From Okeania sp. SIO3I5 (GTDB lineage Bacteria > Cyanobacteriota > Cyanobacteriia > Cyanobacteriales > Microcoleaceae), in the NCBI RefSeq assembly GCF_010672085.1, contig NZ_JAAHHT010000045.1, positions 16,622 through 51,365 of the forward strand: 34,744 bases of DNA. Reading direction: 5' to 3'. Below the pieces are notes generated by a model. The model did not search any database. It was not told the DNA's origin and worked only from the letters and a program-made list of their open reading frames with translations. The first letter of the stretch is position 1, and every line of letters starts with the position of its first letter. Shown one piece after another: positions 675 to 34,744 of this stretch. The position numbers were made by a program, and so were the translations under genes.

Positions 675-3600
675 ATGCTAATTCATTCATCTAAACAAAC
701 ACGAAAAAACTATCGAGGCCGTTCTTTTAAAAATCAAGATTTGACAGATGCAGATTTTTCTTTTGCTGATATAAGAGGAGCAGATTTTACCGGAGCAAAT
801 CTCACGAATGCTAACTTCAATTATGCTTTAGCAGGACTAACAAAATTTCGGATAATTATCATATCTATTGTCGTAGGTATCTTATTTTTAACTGCAGGTA
901 TTGCAGCATTTGTTGCTATGTACGTTCCCACACATTTTTTCCCTAGTAAATCAAAGGAAATAAATCATCTTATTGCAGCTATTTTAATACTTCGAGTATT
1001 TGTCAATATTGGTTTATTAGTAATTACTATTCGTCAAGGAATTGCAGAAACAACAAAATATTTACTTTATTTATTTTCTGGAATGATACTAACAATTCCC
1101 ATACTTGGAGCTTTGGCAACAGACGAGGAAAAAATTGATAACTTTTTCGGTTTTTTAGGAATTTCAGAAGCACCAAATTGGGCTATTTGGTTGTTCGGAA
1201 AATTAAGAATTTTCAGGAGTAGCAAGATTATCGAAAGTGTCAATTATTTCTTGAATGGCAATGAAGATGCAAATCATATTATAGACATAATTATTACTCT
1301 GATAATTTCTATTGTGGCAATATTTGTATTAATTTTAACTCTCAGTTTAGCAGTAGTTTTAGCTGAAATTATCGCTGAAAAATGGTTAGCAAATAGAGCA
1401 GTAATAGGAATATTATTATTAATGGCTGGAATACCTATTATTTCAAATTCTTTTAGAAGTAGTCCTTATCCGTTGATTTTTGGTGTCATATATATAGGTT
1501 TTCCTTGCACCCTAATACTAATAACCCAACATCTAGCAAAAAAAATATTAGCTGAAGACTCAAAAAATATTTTTCTCCTCCGATTAGCTATTGCCATTGG
1601 AACTGTAGGAAGCACCTGTTTTAAAAATGCTAATTTAACCGATGCTGACTTTAGTCACGCCATTCTTAAAAGCACAAATTTTCGATTTTCTAATGCCACT
1701 CGCACATTCTGGCGACAAACCAAATATCTGAAATTTGCCAGAGTCGAAAACACTATCTTAGAAGATATAAAAATCAGAGAGTTATTAATAACTGGATGGG
1801 GAAAAGACCAAGAATATATAGGAGCAAACTTGAGGGGAGCTAACCTTGCAGTTGCCGATTTGAATAACGCTAATTTCAGACAAGCAAATTTAAGCGAATC
1901 TTCCCTAAAAGCTGCTTATTTAAACAATGCAAATTTAACTGAAGCATCAGCAATAGGCACTAATTTTTCCACCGCTCAAATGTCAGGAACTTGTTTGGAA
2001 GGTTGGAATATTGACCATACAACTATCCTCGATAATGTTGAGTCAAAATATATCTATTTATTAGAGAAACCACTGCCAGAAACAGACGATAGAGAACGTC
2101 GCCCTAGTAGTGGATATTTTCTACCGGGAGACTTTACAAAATTATTTACAGAAGTCTTAAATACTGTAGATTTAATTTTCCGAAATGGAGTAGATGCTAA
2201 AGCTTTTATGTCATCTTTTCAACAGGTAAAAGATGAAAACCAAGACGTCCCTATGACAATTCGGGGTATGGAAAATAAAGGTGATGGAGTAGTGGTAATT
2301 ACTATTGATGTACCGCCAGAAACAGAGAAGGAAAAAATTCATCGACAGTTCCTCAAATTCTATGAGCAAAATCTAGGAGTGCTAGAGGAAAAATATCAGG
2401 AAGAATTACAAGAAATTAAACGACAGATAAATCAAAATCTTCAGGAAAGTGAGAGAAAGTATCATATTGAGTTGGCAAAAAGAGAGAAACAAGATGCTCG
2501 TTTAGAAGAGCAAAAAAATTACATGATGTCTTTGTTTAATCAGATATTTCAAAAATCAACCTCTGCTAATTATTTGGTAATTATCAATTTTGAAGGGGGA
2601 AATTTTGAAACAGGTTTTCCAGTTATTAGAGCTAATATTTGGTCAGACAATCATCCTTTACCAATTTCTTTTACGGGTAACTTACCTGCAAATTCAGAAA
2701 TTCCTCAGCTCTATCAAAACTGGAGCCAAAAATATGAACAATTAAGAGAATACCATCAAAATTCTGGCTTCCTTCCTAGAATAAAAATGAAGAAACAGCA
2801 GACAACAAATTTTTCTAAAAAAGACATATATCAGGAAATTCGGGAATTAGAAAAAGAGTGGCGATCGCTCCTCAATAACTGGTTGAACGAGGCAAGTTTT
2901 CACAAAATTGAAAAGGCGCTACGAACGAAATTTAATCCTTCAGATCAAGTCAGATTAATTATTCAATCTGAGGATATTTTAATGCAGCGAATTCCCTGGC
3001 ACTTATGGAATTTTTTCTCTGATTATCTATTTGCTGAAACTGCTATAGGTTTGCCGGAAGCTAACCGAGTGGAAAAGTTAGATATTGCTAGGGAAAAAAT
3101 CCGCATCTTGGCAATTTTTGGAAATGACAAAGGGATAAATGTTGAGGCAGATAAAAAATATTTGTCTAGTCTCTCCAGCGAAGCAGAAGTTGTTGATTTA
3201 GTGAAACCAAGTCGCCAAGAATTAGATGAAAAATTATGGGATGAAAAAGGTTGGGATATTATTTGTTTTTCTGGTCATAGTGACAGTGAAGCAGATGGCA
3301 GTACCGGATATTTTTATTTAGGAAATGAAACTAAAATGACAGTTGAGGAATTAGAAAATTCTCTGGCAAGAACTATTAGGAAAGGTCTACAGTTAGCAAT
3401 TTTCAATTCTTGCGATGGATTAGGTTTAGCTCGACAATTTGCTCGGTTACATATTCCGGCAATTATTGTTATGCGAGAAGAAGTTCCAGATTTAGTTGCT
3501 CGGAAATTTTTTAAGTATTTTCTGGAGTCATTTGCTGGTGGAAAATCTCTATATATTTCTGTGCGAGAAGCGAGGGAAAAATTACAAGTATTGGAAGATA

Positions 3601-3707
3601 AATTTCCTGGGGCGAGTTGGTTGCCAATTATTTGTCAAAATTCCGCAGAAATACCTCCCTCATTTCAGTTATCAGTTAACAGTTATCAGTTATCAGCTAA
3701 TAGTTAA
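675..3707 (+). CDS. Membrane pentapeptide-repeat / CHAT-domain protease-like protein
   Basis: This 1010-aa protein starts at an ATG with AGGAG 8 nt upstream. Residues 13-50 are pentapeptide repeats of the A(D/N)(L/F)xx type. Residues 57-310 hold about six hydrophobic segments. A second pentapeptide block spans 313-440, so the membrane domain is inserted into the repeat solenoid. A charged coiled-coil region lies at about 550-615. The C-terminal third (about 750-990) has CHAT features: FSGH (His868) and FNSC (Cys913), the expected caspase-like dyad, preceded by the IPWHLW segment often found before cyanobacterial CHAT domains. CHAT proteins are caspase-HetF-type peptidases, several of which act in defence or cell death; the substrate here is unknown. 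No partner gene is adjacent. The last ~14 residues are encoded by a heptamer repeat. Domain calls are firm; the biological role is open. Confidence 0.85.
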   Translation: MLIHSSKQTRKNYRGRSFKNQDLTDADFSFADIRGADFTGANLTNANFNYALAGLTKFRIIIISIVVGILFLTAGIAAFVAMYVPTHFFPSKSKEINHLIAAILILRVFVNIGLLVITIRQGIAETTKYLLYLFSGMILTIPILGALATDEEKIDNFFGFLGISEAPNWAIWLFGKLRIFRSSKIIESVNYFLNGNEDANHIIDIIITLIISIVAIFVLILTLSLAVVLAEIIAEKWLANRAVIGILLLMAGIPIISNSFRSSPYPLIFGVIYIGFPCTLILITQHLAKKILAEDSKNIFLLRLAIAIGTVGSTCFKNANLTDADFSHAILKSTNFRFSNATRTFWRQTKYLKFARVENTILEDIKIRELLITGWGKDQEYIGANLRGANLAVADLNNANFRQANLSESSLKAAYLNNANLTEASAIGTNFSTAQMSGTCLEGWNIDHTTILDNVESKYIYLLEKPLPETDDRERRPSSGYFLPGDFTKLFTEVLNTVDLIFRNGVDAKAFMSSFQQVKDENQDVPMTIRGMENKGDGVVVITIDVPPETEKEKIHRQFLKFYEQNLGVLEEKYQEELQEIKRQINQNLQESERKYHIELAKREKQDARLEEQKNYMMSLFNQIFQKSTSANYLVIINFEGGNFETGFPVIRANIWSDNHPLPISFTGNLPANSEIPQLYQNWSQKYEQLREYHQNSGFLPRIKMKKQQTTNFSKKDIYQEIRELEKEWRSLLNNWLNEASFHKIEKALRTKFNPSDQVRLIIQSEDILMQRIPWHLWNFFSDYLFAETAIGLPEANRVEKLDIAREKIRILAIFGNDKGINVEADKKYLSSLSSEAEVVDLVKPSRQELDEKLWDEKGWDIICFSGHSDSEADGSTGYFYLGNETKMTVEELENSLARTIRKGLQLAIFNSCDGLGLARQFARLHIPAIIVMREEVPDLVARKFFKYFLESFAGGKSLYISVREAREKLQVLEDKFPGASWLPIICQNSAEIPPSFQLSVNSYQLSANS

Positions 3708-29858: not shown

Positions 29859-29948
29859 ACTTCTTGCAGAAGTCAGGGAATAGGGAATAGGGAATAGGGA
29901 ATAGGGAATGAAATTGTTGATTTCATTTTTTATTTTTGGAGATGTCTA
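29856..29948 (+). mobile_element. MITE-like element M2, copy 4
   Basis: It begins TAGACTTCTTGCAGAAGTC, contains (GGGAATA)n and ends TTTTTGGAGATGTCTA. It is the reverse complement of 14145-14255 over its length. Its first TAG is the stop codon of the CO2-hydration gene. Confidence 0.8.
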
Positions 29949-30517: not shown

Positions 30518-30641
30518 TAGACATTTTCAAAAATCAAAAATAAAATCAATTCTTATCCATAAATTATCAATTATTCTTCCCTGTTCCCAGTTAAGTGTTC
30601 CCAGTTAAGTGTTCCCTGTTCCCTCTTTTCTGGAGATGTCT
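30518..30641 (+). mobile_element. MITE-like element M2, copy 5
   Basis: It starts TAGACATTTTCAAAAATC and ends TCTGGAGATGTCTA. The left part matches the inverted right part of copy 4 (AAAAATAAAATCAA). The interior contains GTTCCC/AAGTGTTCCC repeats. Its right end merges with (CTGACTA)n heptamers. Confidence 0.7.
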
Positions 30642-30677
30642 ACTGACTACTGACTACTGACTACTGACTACTGACTA
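30640..30677. repeat. (CTGACTA)n heptamers abutting the GGDEF gene
   Basis: About five perfect 7-bp units end six bases before the ATG at 30683, so they form the proximal leader of the gene; no Shine-Dalgarno is seen. Confidence 0.9.
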
Positions 30678-30682
30678 AAGAC

Positions 30683-32494
30683 ATGATGAAGATGAGAAAA
30701 GTAAAATCTAGATTAGCTACCTTCTGCCGTCCGATTATTAATCTTATGTCTGAGTTATTAGGATTACCAAGTATTGACTATTTAGAAGCTCAACTACAAC
30801 AAAAAACTCAGGAACTAGAGCAAATATCTGCACAACAGAGGGCAATATACCGAGTCATCAGTAAGATTAGAGCATCTCTTGACATAGAAACAATATTTCG
30901 CACAACTACAAAAGAAACTTGTAGACTCTTAGGTGTAGAACGAGTCTTAGTATATCGTTTTTCTGAAGACTGGGGCGGTCAGTTTGTTGGAGATTTTGAA
31001 TTTACTGAAACTGGTTGGGATGATTTTCGCAAACTAAGTAAAAACACTATCTGGAATGACTCCTATCTTCAGGAACATCAAGGTGGTAGATATCGCTATA
31101 ACGAAACATTTGTAGTAGAAAATATTTATAGAGCAGGGTTGTCTCAATGCCATGTTGAAATATTGGAACAATTTGATATCCGAGCTTTTGCAACTGCTCC
31201 CATTTTTGTCAAACAAAAATTGTGGGGCATTCTAGCTGCCTATCAACATTCCCAACCCCATAATTGGCAAACTTCCGAAGTTAAATTTTTGACTCAAGTT
31301 GCAGCTCAACTAGGTATTGCCCTACAGCAAGCAGAACAACTAGCGGAAGTAGAGCAAAAAGCTAAAGATTTGCAAGAAACTGGGCAGCAACAAAAGATTT
31401 TATTCAACTTAATTTCTGAAATTCGTGAATCTCTCGACTTTGATACGTTATTTAAAACTACTGCCAAAGAAGTTAGAAAAGCTTTGGAGTGCGATCGCGT
31501 CGGGTTATTCCGCTTTGATCCAGATAGTAAGTACTGCTTTGGTGAGTTTGTTGCTGAAAGCGTTTTACCAGTTTATAGCTCTGTGCGTTTGAAAAAAGTC
31601 AGGGATAATTGTTTTGGCGAACAGTATGCCATCTATTATCAACAGGGAAGTACGCAAGTGCTAACCGATATTTACAATGCTGATTTAAAAGATTGTCATA
31701 TTCAAATGTTAGAGCAATTTGAAATTAAAGCACAAATAATCGTACCTTTAATGCTTGGTTCAACATTGTGGGGATTATTATGTATTCATCAGTGCGAAAA
31801 TCCTCGTGAATGGACTGACAAGGAAATTCGATTTGTTAAACAACTAGCAGCTCAGTTTAGTGTCGCTTTGGAACATTCCAATTTATTAGCTCAAACTCGT
31901 TCTCAAGCAGAGGAATTATCCCAAACTCTTGATGCACTTCAAGAGGCAAATCTTAAATTAGAAAATTTGGCTCGAATTGATGGTTTAACTCAAATTCCTA
32001 ACCGCCGTTACTTTGATGAATTTTTAGAGCAGGAATGGAGACGACTGGTAAGAGAAAAGCAATTTTTATCTCTAATTATGTTTGATGTCGATCATTTCAA
32101 ATTATACAATGATTTTTATGGTCATCAAGCTGGAGACCAATGCTTGTTTAAAATAGCTCAGACTGCTCAAAAGATTGTGAAACGCCCCGCAGATTTGCTA
32201 GCTCGCTATGGAGGCGAAGAGTTTGCGGTGATTTTGCCCAATACGGACAAAGAAGGAACTTCTATGGTAGCAGCAGAGATTCAATCAGCAGTTAAGGATT
32301 TAGGTATTCCTCATACAGAAGTTGAAAAACAAATAATTACTATAAGTTTGGGTGTTGCGACTATGATGCCATCAATCGATCAAACACTCCAGGAATTGAT
32401 ACTTGAAGCAGATAAAGCTTTATATAGGGCTAAACAACAGGGGCGAGATTGCAGTATACACTTTAGCATTATTGAACAGGAAGGAAGCATTTAG
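30683..32494 (+). CDS. Dual-GAF cyanobacteriochrome diguanylate cyclase
   Basis: This 603-aa soluble protein begins with a coiled-coil start (about 32-60). GAF1 (about 60-220) has WNDSYLQEHQGGRY (124-137) and SQCHVEILEQF with Cys156-His157, the canonical bilin-attachment pair. The W.D.YLQ..GGRY pattern is the one I associate with red/green cyanobacteriochromes. GAF2 (about 240-398) has DNCF (308-311), matching the DXCF motif with second Cys310, and DCHIQMLEQF with Cys338-His339, typical of blue/green or related two-cysteine types. A coiled coil leads to a GGDEF domain (about 425-590) with catalytic GGEEF (510-514) and an RxxD inhibitory site (501-504) at the correct five-residue distance. It should make cyclic-di-GMP under light control. 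Bilin binding is inferred from motifs. Start codons 30683, 30686 and 30692 are all possible. Confidence 0.9.
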   Translation: MMKMRKVKSRLATFCRPIINLMSELLGLPSIDYLEAQLQQKTQELEQISAQQRAIYRVISKIRASLDIETIFRTTTKETCRLLGVERVLVYRFSEDWGGQFVGDFEFTETGWDDFRKLSKNTIWNDSYLQEHQGGRYRYNETFVVENIYRAGLSQCHVEILEQFDIRAFATAPIFVKQKLWGILAAYQHSQPHNWQTSEVKFLTQVAAQLGIALQQAEQLAEVEQKAKDLQETGQQQKILFNLISEIRESLDFDTLFKTTAKEVRKALECDRVGLFRFDPDSKYCFGEFVAESVLPVYSSVRLKKVRDNCFGEQYAIYYQQGSTQVLTDIYNADLKDCHIQMLEQFEIKAQIIVPLMLGSTLWGLLCIHQCENPREWTDKEIRFVKQLAAQFSVALEHSNLLAQTRSQAEELSQTLDALQEANLKLENLARIDGLTQIPNRRYFDEFLEQEWRRLVREKQFLSLIMFDVDHFKLYNDFYGHQAGDQCLFKIAQTAQKIVKRPADLLARYGGEEFAVILPNTDKEGTSMVAAEIQSAVKDLGIPHTEVEKQIITISLGVATMMPSIDQTLQELILEADKALYRAKQQGRDCSIHFSIIEQEGSI

Positions 32495-33091: not shown

Positions 33092-34309
33092 TCACTCTAT
33101 GACAATAGAATCATTGACAACAGTGAAGGCAGTAGCCTGCAAAGCTCTCAACATTATGTTGCGAGCGCCATTAATATCCCGTGCAATTACATGACCGCAT
33201 TGAGGACATTTATAAATCTTAGAACCACCCAACTTCTTATGAACGTGACCGCAGTTTGTACAAGTTTTAGAAGTATAAGCTTCATTACAACGAACTACTA
33301 AAACACATGAGCGAGCTGCCTTATGTTCAAGATCACAAGCAAACTTTCCATGACTCCAGGAGAGCATATTTCTGACAGATTTGCGGTTAATTTTTCTGGT
33401 TGACTTCAGAACCATTTGAGAGGTTTCATAAGTAGGCAGAAAAATTAATTTATAGCTATTGACTAAGAAAGAAGCTACCTTGTTATGCAAATCCTTTACC
33501 AGATATTGAATGCGAGTTCTCATTCTAGTTGCTGCCTTGCGCATTTGAGCGCGTTGCCGTTTGTTTTTTGATAGTGCGACACGACTTAATAAATTATCAA
33601 GGTGCGAGCATAAACGGTTAATTCGCCCGATGTCTCCCTTGCCAATTTCTAAAACGTTTTCACCATCATAGCCAGTTAAAAATGCTCTATTTCCCGGGTC
33701 TAATGCAATAACTTTATCGGAACCAGTAGTCCTTGGCTCAATGTATTGAGGAAAGCAAGCAAACCATTGTCCTCGTTGATAAACCAGCTCAGTTCCATAA
33801 TCACAATTACGAGGTACTTGATATCCAATCGCAGTACAAAAAAGCATACCTTTTACTTTTTTAGGAAACCAAGTTCCATTCCGATAAGCATCGTTTTTAA
33901 ATTGAATTACTTGGGATTTATTTCGACAAGAACGATAACGCAATTGACAGTTTAGACCCTGATTAGCAGCCAAGGCTTGTTTGTATGCCTGTTCTGCTTC
34001 ACAAACAGCCTCTTGTCTGGTTTTTCCTAAACATCTAGTCCATTCATTTTCAGGTTGAGATTGTCTGCTTTGAATTACTTGGTCTAAGGATTTCCCTTTT
34101 GGCAAAGTTCTTTGATGATTAAAAAACTCAACGCATTGATTGTAAACCCAACGATAAGCAGCTAACCATTCCTTCCAGATTTTATGTAGTTCAATGCTAG
34201 GCCAGACAGGAACTTTGACAACACTATTTGGCCTCAGTTTTTGACTCTTTTTGTATGGGTTTTTCCCGTACTTTTTCGGCGATTTCTTTTTTGTATCTTC
34301 GCAACCCAT
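33092..34309 (-). CDS. tnpB: RNA-guided endonuclease TnpB (IS607 type)
   Basis: The ATG at 34309 gives 405 aa, a usual TnpB length. The open frame continues upstream to 34654, but those 115 codons overlap tnpA and do not look like TnpB. The RuvC-like nuclease residues are all present: Asp204 in IALDPGNRAFLTGY, Glu295 in LPTYETSQMV and Asp378 in ARDINGARN. A four-cysteine zinc finger (Cys350, 353, 368, 371) sits between the last two. The N-terminal part contains the helix-turn-helix-like LHKIWKEWLAAYRWVYNQ. TnpB is a programmable nuclease that maintains its element by cutting donor sites. It overlaps tnpA by 86 bp. The gene appears intact and probably active. Confidence 0.93.
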   Translation of the reverse strand: MGCEDTKKKSPKKYGKNPYKKSQKLRPNSVVKVPVWPSIELHKIWKEWLAAYRWVYNQCVEFFNHQRTLPKGKSLDQVIQSRQSQPENEWTRCLGKTRQEAVCEAEQAYKQALAANQGLNCQLRYRSCRNKSQVIQFKNDAYRNGTWFPKKVKGMLFCTAIGYQVPRNCDYGTELVYQRGQWFACFPQYIEPRTTGSDKVIALDPGNRAFLTGYDGENVLEIGKGDIGRINRLCSHLDNLLSRVALSKNKRQRAQMRKAATRMRTRIQYLVKDLHNKVASFLVNSYKLIFLPTYETSQMVLKSTRKINRKSVRNMLSWSHGKFACDLEHKAARSCVLVVRCNEAYTSKTCTNCGHVHKKLGGSKIYKCPQCGHVIARDINGARNIMLRALQATAFTVVNDSIVIE

Positions 34310-34744
34310 AAAGCCGCGAACTGAAACAGTGGATGATGGACAACATATCCTGAACGAGTTCTTGTTCTGGAGATTGTTTCGTGTCATTGAGAACCAAGAG
34401 TTCGCACTCGTTACGTTCGCATAGCCATTTAACCAATTCCCATCCAAATCTAACGAGTCTGTCTGGGTGGGCAACGACAAGGCGTTTGATATCACCTGTG
34501 CAAATTCTGTCCAAAATGGAGAGGAATCGTTTCCGCTTAAAATTAAGTCCGCTGCCAATTTCTGATACGATTTCCGCTTCTGGGAATCTTGAGAGCAATA
34601 GTTCAATCTGTCCCTCAATATCGTCTCGTTGGGAATGGCTCGACACCCTTGCATAACAAACAGTGGTAATTGCCCTGGGCCAACCTGCTGCTTGTTCGAT
34701 TTCTTCGATTGAGTACCGCCTGTGCCCTGACGGGGTTTTGATTA
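34224..34744 (-). CDS. tnpA: IS607 serine recombinase TnpA, partial
   Basis: This is a small serine recombinase that excises and integrates the element. The frame is open from the stop at 34224 to the window edge, so the gene is truncated there, not at the GTG at 34646. At the edge it reads KTPSGHRRYSIEEIEQAAG, the end of the MerR-like helix-turn-helix of IS607 TnpA. TTVCYARVSSHSQRDD follows, with the catalytic Ser (codon 34643-34641), then VVAHPDRLVRFGWEL, the conserved DRL.RFG block. About 20 N-terminal residues are missing. Its 3' end overlaps tnpB, suggesting coupled translation. Confidence 0.93.
   Translation of the reverse strand, partial: IKTPSGHRRYSIEEIEQAAGWPRAITTVCYARVSSHSQRDDIEGQIELLLSRFPEAEIVSEIGSGLNFKRKRFLSILDRICTGDIKRLVVAHPDRLVRFGWELVKWLCERNECELLVLNDTKQSPEQELVQDMLSIIHCFSSRLYGLRRYKKEIAEKVREKPIQKESKTEAK

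Follow-up and report, generated by a model that had tools for sequence, protein, structure and literature searches.

The 34,744-nucleotide stretch of Okeania sp. SIO3I5 DNA analysed here (contig NZ_JAAHHT010000045.1, positions 16,622 to 51,365; hereafter the window) carries a gene for a 603-residue protein in which two cyanobacteriochrome (CBCR) GAF domains, GAF1 and GAF2, precede a single GGDEF domain. We favour, at a probability of roughly 60%, the reading that this protein is a two-bilin-gated and probably dimeric diguanylate cyclase that combines a red/green-type GAF1 with a teal-type GAF2. The 603-residue protein is real, intact and conserved. With CBCR GAFs and a GGDEF domain with an intact GG(D/E)EF motif on one chain, it belongs by sequence to the already known CBCR-based diguanylate cyclases, and cyclase activity is predicted. 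No EAL domain was found in the protein, no family other than TIGR00254 scored above cut-off among the 25 best of 27 NCBIfam matches, and the single antisense frame translated contains many stops. An original prediction for this DNA had already described one diguanylate cyclase, its motifs intact, joined to two CBCR-type GAFs that differ in class. Pfam, motifs and trees bear this out, and a motif scan placed C156-H157, C338-H339, DNCF (308-311), GGEEF (510-514) and RPAD (501-504) exactly at the positions claimed. The GAF1 pattern quoted there, W.D.YLQ..GGRY, returned zero matches; the real stretch, W124-N-D126-S-Y-L129-QEHQ-GGRY, is one residue longer. The two-GAF cyclase design is indeed present and is commoner than the prediction implies, with orthologs in 31 genomes. 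The earlier interpretation was right in outline and is partly supported; the integration of two colour channels and the relevance to motility or aggregation that it suggested would be hypothetical.

Of 61 genomes of the family, 12 have a full-length match (at least 63% identity), as do 11 of 291 sampled genomes of the order (six beyond the family, at 55-60% identity) and 13 of 388 sampled genomes of the class (51-62% identity outside the family); the three samples overlap. In the class sample the gene is broken by a stop in G403 and present as a 396-residue fragment in G324. The orthologs come from 31 distinct genomes, counting this fragment and a 616-residue ortholog of 62% identity from G738, and the carriers include Hydrocoleum sp. 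CS-953 and Okeania hirsuta. Matches in G179, G192 and G204 have one stop each, with stop-to-stop open reading frames (ORFs) whose starts lie a few residues at most from that of the ortholog. A search of plasmid records for relatives gave nine matches, the best at 38.8% identity, and these were set aside. Among genomes of the same genus, G000, G056 and G057 (8.4-10.5 Mb) have a full-length match and G055, G058, G059 and G060 (4.2-7.2 Mb, completeness 81-99%) do not; the smaller genomes suggest a wide loss of such sensors, with G058 only 81% complete. These four genomes may belong to planktonic Trichodesmium. First-look candidates numbered 21-30 in these four genomes and 81-95 in the other three.

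The residues expected to hold the bilins are stable across the orthologs. The W, D and L of the WXDXXL motif, both canonical cysteines, and the D, C and F of the DXCF motif are kept in 31/31 orthologs, whereas the share of invariant columns is 33% in GAF1 and 24% in GAF2; motif conservation therefore exceeds chance. Ratios of nonsynonymous to synonymous substitution rates (dN/dS) between the gene in the window and four near orthologs are 0.26-0.37 overall, with 0.21-0.24 for GAF1, 0.15-0.37 for GAF2 and 0.36-0.42 for GGDEF, and these estimates show purifying selection on the gene in the four near pairs. The order of the sensors, an extended red/green (XRG) domain followed by a DXCF domain, is fixed across the orthologs. 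The two canonical cysteines lie 182 residues apart in 27 of 30 orthologs and 181 apart in two; the spacing of the remaining one, L190, was mis-parsed by the pattern (306). From the GAF2 canonical cysteine to GGEEF the distance is 172 residues in 24/28 and 171 in 4/28, where the gap falls inside GGDEF, ahead of the putative feedback (I) site; the ORFs read for L193 (broken frame) and L194 (396 residues) lack GGEEF. More widely, a 22-residue gap separates adjacent CBCR GAFs in 129 of 151 cases, a count that includes genes taken twice. That 182 is divisible by seven was discarded as uninformative, since the distance spans folded domains.

Against all PDB chains, GAF1 is matched best by AnPixJg2 (3w2z), a variant (5zoh) and NpR6012g4 (6bhn), each at 162 bits, then by Slr1393g3 (5dfx, 153 bits) and JSC1_58120g3 (6xhg, 142 bits); TePixJ chains reach only 69-70 bits and Cph2 36 bits. 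Some of these protein names are presumed, the PDB listing often giving a generic molecule name only. Two trees were built, one of 94 domains, from which GAFs below 140 bits or spanning fewer than 140 residues, identical sequences and loci taken twice were excluded, and one of 84 domains, a chosen subset with 12 of the 31 orthologs. For Nostoc-type rows, family f33 was used in place of genus g200, which was rejected as Nostoc because its best identity to NpR6012g4 was 58%, the E limit being passed in 2 of 26 genomes. In both trees a single clade unites the GAF1 orthologs, and it is nested within an XRG clade (support 100/99 in the 94-domain and 84-domain trees) that includes all four XRG references, AnPixJg2, NpR6012g4, Slr1393g3 and JSC1_58120g3. 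Both positions associated with a trapped-twist photoproduct are Phe in 31/31 GAF1 orthologs. The NpR6012g4 numbers that we assume for this comparison, F634, W655, D657 and F695, are returned by the alignment mapping once W is set to 655. WXDXXL is a motif of XRG domains (PMC11284453; here and below, papers are cited by PubMed Central number for excerpts of their text), and the same source gives Cys/Val/Ile in phycoviolobilin (PVB) formers and Trp/Thr/Ala in typical phycocyanobilin (PCB) binders at three separating positions; GAF1 has W124, S127 and A185 there. By tree and residues, GAF1 is an XRG CBCR domain, for which red/green photoconversion is predicted.

As a separate observation, GAF1 of four of the five Okeania-group orthologs (L004, L006, L007 and L008) reads WNDCYL. 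The extra Cys lies one residue past the lead Asp and aligns with V1018 of MCC3606390g2; it may mark a second-Cys site that is new for an XRG domain.

GAF2 combines a DXCF second cysteine with the canonical C338 and is thus a DXCF domain. In the 94-domain tree it falls in a DXCF-rich clade (99/96) without a PDB reference inside; in the 84-domain tree its clade of 26 rows (100/98) includes an NpR1597g1-like domain, with TePixJ outside. In neither tree does it group with TePixJ, as a classical blue/green domain would. The NpR1597g1-like row is taken from a protein with several GAFs, of which it is the first, in G738, a genome that matches NpR6012g4 at 99% and is therefore Nostoc punctiforme or near it. 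In that protein the GAF after the DXCF GAF has a loop insertion that contains CXXK, and we call the protein NpR1597-like because this fits the description in PMC5240096, where NpR1597g1 is teal-DXCF and NpR1597g2 insert-Cys. Both trapped-twist positions of GAF2 are Phe, F289 on beta2 in 30/31 orthologs and F346 on alpha4 in 31/31, where TePixJ has Val and Leu. Such Phe residues have been tied to red/green and teal-DXCF photocycles (PMC5240096, PMC5578081), the beta2-Phe model accounts for teal-DXCF domains too (PMC5578081), and green/teal CBCRs have a twisted photoproduct that resembles that of red/green CBCRs, but with PVB (PMC12420706). With Phe at both positions, these links predict a GAF2 photoproduct that is more probably teal than green. 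For the dark state both blue and green are possible, since green/teal cycles exist too (PMC5578081). Of the red/green and blue/green pair first proposed for the two GAFs, the red/green lineage of GAF1 stands on tree and residues, and blue/green for GAF2 is probably wrong, given its place outside the TePixJ group and its two Phe. The claim that GAF2 alone has the DXCF cysteine holds, as GAF1 lacks a Cys at that position in 31/31 orthologs. A place for GAF1 outside the CBCRs had been named beforehand as evidence against the proposal; PDB scores and the two trees (neither with a phytochrome row) put it inside them.

A third cysteine of GAF2, C367, is also invariant (31/31 orthologs), with Ile at this position in TePixJ. 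It aligns with AnPixJg2 Ala350 and I1076 of MCC3606390g2, and the latter lies on the beta side of ring D (PMC11284453); by this analogy C367 would face the bilin pocket. In the 83 distinct DXCF domains collected, a Cys occupies this position in 58/58 domains with beta2 Phe, in 8/10 with beta2 Leu, Ile or Met and in 1/15 with beta2 Val. It is not exclusive to DXCF domains: 17 of 173 domains without DXCF carry it, most of them at a GAF2-like position in related proteins, and three of the 17 are WXDXXL domains (L175, and L179 twice). Any chemical role for C367 is speculation.

From these data we infer bilin binding, the colours, the dimer, the coupling and the sign of light control as follows. 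The protein would be a diguanylate cyclase, probably dimeric, gated by two covalently bound bilins. The genome encodes PcyA (360 bits versus a cut-off of 206), so that PCB should be available, and it also encodes both phycoerythrobilin-pathway reductases. GAF2 would bind its bilin through C338, with C310 driving conversion to PVB and possibly forming a labile second link, and would switch to a teal photoproduct from a blue dark state or, failing that second link, from a green one. Both GAF states may be relayed through two helical linkers of nearly fixed length to a GGDEF dimer; GAF2, which adjoins the enzyme, would more likely gate it directly, with GAF1 in a modulating role and cyclic di-GMP (c-di-GMP) feeding back at the I-site. 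Were the GAF2 dark state blue, blue plus red light would drive both sensors to their photoproducts and teal-green light would reverse both, making c-di-GMP a readout of blue plus red versus teal-green. A more specific version, in which a conserved opponent c-di-GMP switch, present in distantly related cyanobacteria, works on these colours, both photoproducts being teal-green, and the GAF2 pocket uses a C367 absent from TePixJ, is put forward tentatively and is doubtful as a whole.

Several observations weigh against the two-bilin, red/green-plus-teal reading. In the PDB ranking for GAF2, 6oap (119 bits), taken here as PPHK and without a DXCF Cys, ranks together with red/green domains (111-118 bits) above TePixJ (3vv4, 105 bits), and the GAF2 clade joins the XRG clade weakly (79/75 in the 94-domain and 88/77 in the 84-domain tree). 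The teal assignment depends on two Phe and the tree; one of the 31 GAF2 orthologs lacks the beta2 Phe, and the sole teal reference in the tree is NpR1597-like by architecture, not by record. PMC5578081 gives green/teal cycles besides DXCF members with teal photoproducts, and with a green dark state for GAF2 the simple opponent logic breaks. The spacing is imperfect, one residue short between cysteines in two orthologs and between cysteine and GGEEF in four. The I-site is replaced by CPAD in three Okeania-group genomes and by SFSG in one, and with this loss in 4/28 orthologs feedback is not essential. The AlphaFold2 (AF2) model of the full protein, from an eight-row alignment (pLDDT 49.2, pTM 0.33), is too poor for testing pockets or the dimer.

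How GAF2 is tuned separates the favoured reading from one in which a red/green GAF1 is joined to a GAF2 with the classical blue/green cycle of TePixJ and SesA. DXCF domains typically cycle between blue and green (PMC11284453) and GAF2 has both the DXCF cysteine and the CH pair, but its place outside the TePixJ group in both trees, and its three tuning positions, Phe, Phe and Cys against Val, Leu and Ile in TePixJ, make this unlikely. Whether GAF1 senses light at all is the point of another account, by which GAF2 is the sole sensor and GAF1 a structural partner, or the two form a pair resembling the GAF-GAF unit found in knotless phytochromes of the Cph2 type. Of the two GAFs in PixJ1 only the second carries PCB, and the Cph2 family contains GAF-GAF modules (PMC5812497). 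GAF1, however, retains its W, D, C, H and both Phe in 31/31 orthologs, is the more conserved GAF by invariant columns, and groups with stand-alone red/green CBCRs (in trees without a phytochrome row); Cph2 (4bwi) scores just 36 bits against each GAF in the PDB search, and both GAFs have bilin motifs. We regard this account as distinctly improbable. Least of all do we expect a light-independent or dead protein, with another GAF ligand or an inactive cyclase. The I-sites missing from some orthologs, the broken gene in G403 and the lack of a full-length match in 4/7 same-genus genomes would fit such a protein, but GGEEF is intact in 28/28 orthologs where it was read, the dN/dS values are low and the genome encodes PcyA, so that it seems very unlikely.

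Coordinates (window numbering) of the CBCR cyclase gene and its features
Feature	Position	Strand	Basis
Gene for GAF1-GAF2-GGDEF protein, 603 residues	30683..32494	+	ORF without internal stop, Pfam, motifs, orthologs
N-terminal segment, residues 1-66, predicted helical	30683..30880	+	No Pfam domain; helices from low-confidence AF2 model
GAF1, residues 67-214, XRG (red/green-type) CBCR domain	30881..31324	+	Pfam; PDB matches; trees
WXDXXL motif W124-L129 of GAF1	31052..31069	+	W, D, L invariant in 31/31 orthologs
Cys156-His157, canonical bilin cysteine pair of GAF1	31148..31153	+	C and H in 31/31
GAF1-GAF2 linker, residues 215-250, predicted helical	31325..31432	+	Near-fixed Cys-Cys spacing
GAF2, residues 251-397, DXCF CBCR domain, teal-DXCF-like lineage	31433..31873	+	Pfam; tree; residues
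DXCF motif D308-N-C310-F311 (second cysteine) of GAF2	31604..31615	+	D, C, F in 31/31
Cys338-His339, canonical bilin cysteine pair of GAF2	31694..31699	+	C in 31/31; next residue H in 28, Y in 3
Cys367 of GAF2, counterpart of AnPixJg2 Ala350 at the beta face of ring D	31781..31783	+	Alignment
GAF2-GGDEF linker, residues 398-430, predicted helical	31874..31972	+	Near-fixed Cys-GGEEF spacing
GGDEF diguanylate cyclase domain, residues 431-589	31973..32449	+	Pfam 178 bits; NCBIfam TIGR00254 171.5 bits
I-site RPAD, residues 501-504	32183..32194	+	Motif; RxxD in 24/28 orthologs
Active-site GGEEF, residues 510-514	32210..32224	+	Motif; intact in 28/28 orthologs where read

Upstream of the CBCR cyclase gene, 824 bp away on the + strand, lies a chpXY CO2-hydration gene, itself preceded on that strand by an ndhD-like gene. 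The order chpXY-CBCR is kept in 5/5 Okeania-group stretches and ndhD-chpXY-CBCR in 4/5, the fifth contig being short. Given other neighbourhoods, no functional link to chpXY is claimed: in the G056 contig and the stretches of four g11 genomes, only this window gene and some GAF/GGDEF paralogs were matched, and a 3867-base contig of G057 holds this gene alone. In Hydrocoleum sp. CS-953 AMIN and amidase ORFs follow the ortholog and chpXY is not on that contig. Downstream, 4/5 Okeania-group stretches have an ORF of 719-725 residues, an AMIN-amidase in both that were scanned; in Hydrocoleum sp. CS-953 (L111:3740-6429) it is split into a 327-residue AMIN and a 400-residue amidase ORF. In the window, a gene for a TnpB-family RNA-guided nuclease (33092-34654, - strand; NF040570, 133 bits against a cut-off of 100) lies directly downstream and occupies the place of the relatives' cell-wall amidase gene; no amidase remnant was found in the window, which ends at the contig end. 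A perfect heptamer tandem repeat, CTACTGA x5.4 (30640-30677), ends five bases before the start codon of the cyclase gene, and another, AGGGAAT x5.0, lies at 29875-29909. Elsewhere in the window, positions 675-3707 on the + strand encode a 1010-residue protein that combines pentapeptide repeats with a CHAT domain (Pfam). Rfam gave no match at gathering score within the window, and promoter-like sites (11 versus 12.0 expected) and terminator-like sites (2 versus 1.7 expected) were such that none is claimed.

In SesA, SesC and the Cph2 CBCR module, as excerpted, one colour pair serves each GGDEF domain; the 603-residue protein sets two unlike sensors on one output, at near-fixed spacing across distant cyanobacteria, and in-chain signal integration therefore becomes testable by locking either sensor. 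A teal rather than green GAF2 is a falsifiable colour prediction. If the opponent reading is true, self-shading in mats would be an example of its use, and a working protein could provide a compact two-input optogenetic module.

Among known systems, SesA (Tlr0924) of Thermosynechococcus likewise has a CBCR GAF and a GGDEF domain in one protein and is a blue-light-activated cyclase with product inhibition through an RXXD site (PMC5871770), but its single CBCR GAF (PMC5812497) is blue/green and it has no XRG domain. Cph2 of Synechocystis likewise combines two bilin modules with GGDEF domains on a single chain; there each bilin module adjoins its own GGDEF (PMC5812497), whereas two CBCR GAFs share one GGDEF here. 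In phytochrome cyclases, light control is set by linker length (PMC9587094). The excerpted table of a 2022 census of c-di-GMP sensors lists SesA/B/C, Cip1, Cph2 and bacteriophytochromes and contains no tandem CBCR cyclase (PMC8846402). We found no study of a tandem XRG-DXCF cyclase in the open-licence literature, which is weak evidence, the 2021 survey by Blain-Hartung, Rockwell and Lagarias lying outside that scope. Their title reportedly states natural CBCR-based diguanylate cyclases. At the level of single domains, AnPixJg2, NpR6012g4 and Slr1393g3 share with GAF1 the WXDXXL motif, the Cys-His pair, both trapped-twist Phe and the clade; they differ in host protein and, at two pocket positions, GAF1 has Tyr and Leu where AnPixJg2 and NpR6012g4 have His and His and Slr1393g3 Tyr and Phe. 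The NpR1597g1-like row, identified by architecture only, shares with GAF2 the DXCF motif, both Phe, the ring-D-position Cys and the clade, and differs in the residue next to the canonical Cys, a Tyr instead of the His of GAF2. The pair itself is found on other proteins: the last two GAFs of four-GAF histidine kinases of about 1070 residues match residues ~37-437 (46-53% identity) with order and gap unchanged, although these proteins have a HisKA/HATPase output in the three scanned and some lack the DXCF Cys. A 1304-residue protein of G024 (L146) has close relatives of both GAFs in the order DXCF-DXCF-XRG. Because the pair also occurs on histidine kinases and in the G024 protein, it recurs as a module, of which the GGDEF version is one stable combination.
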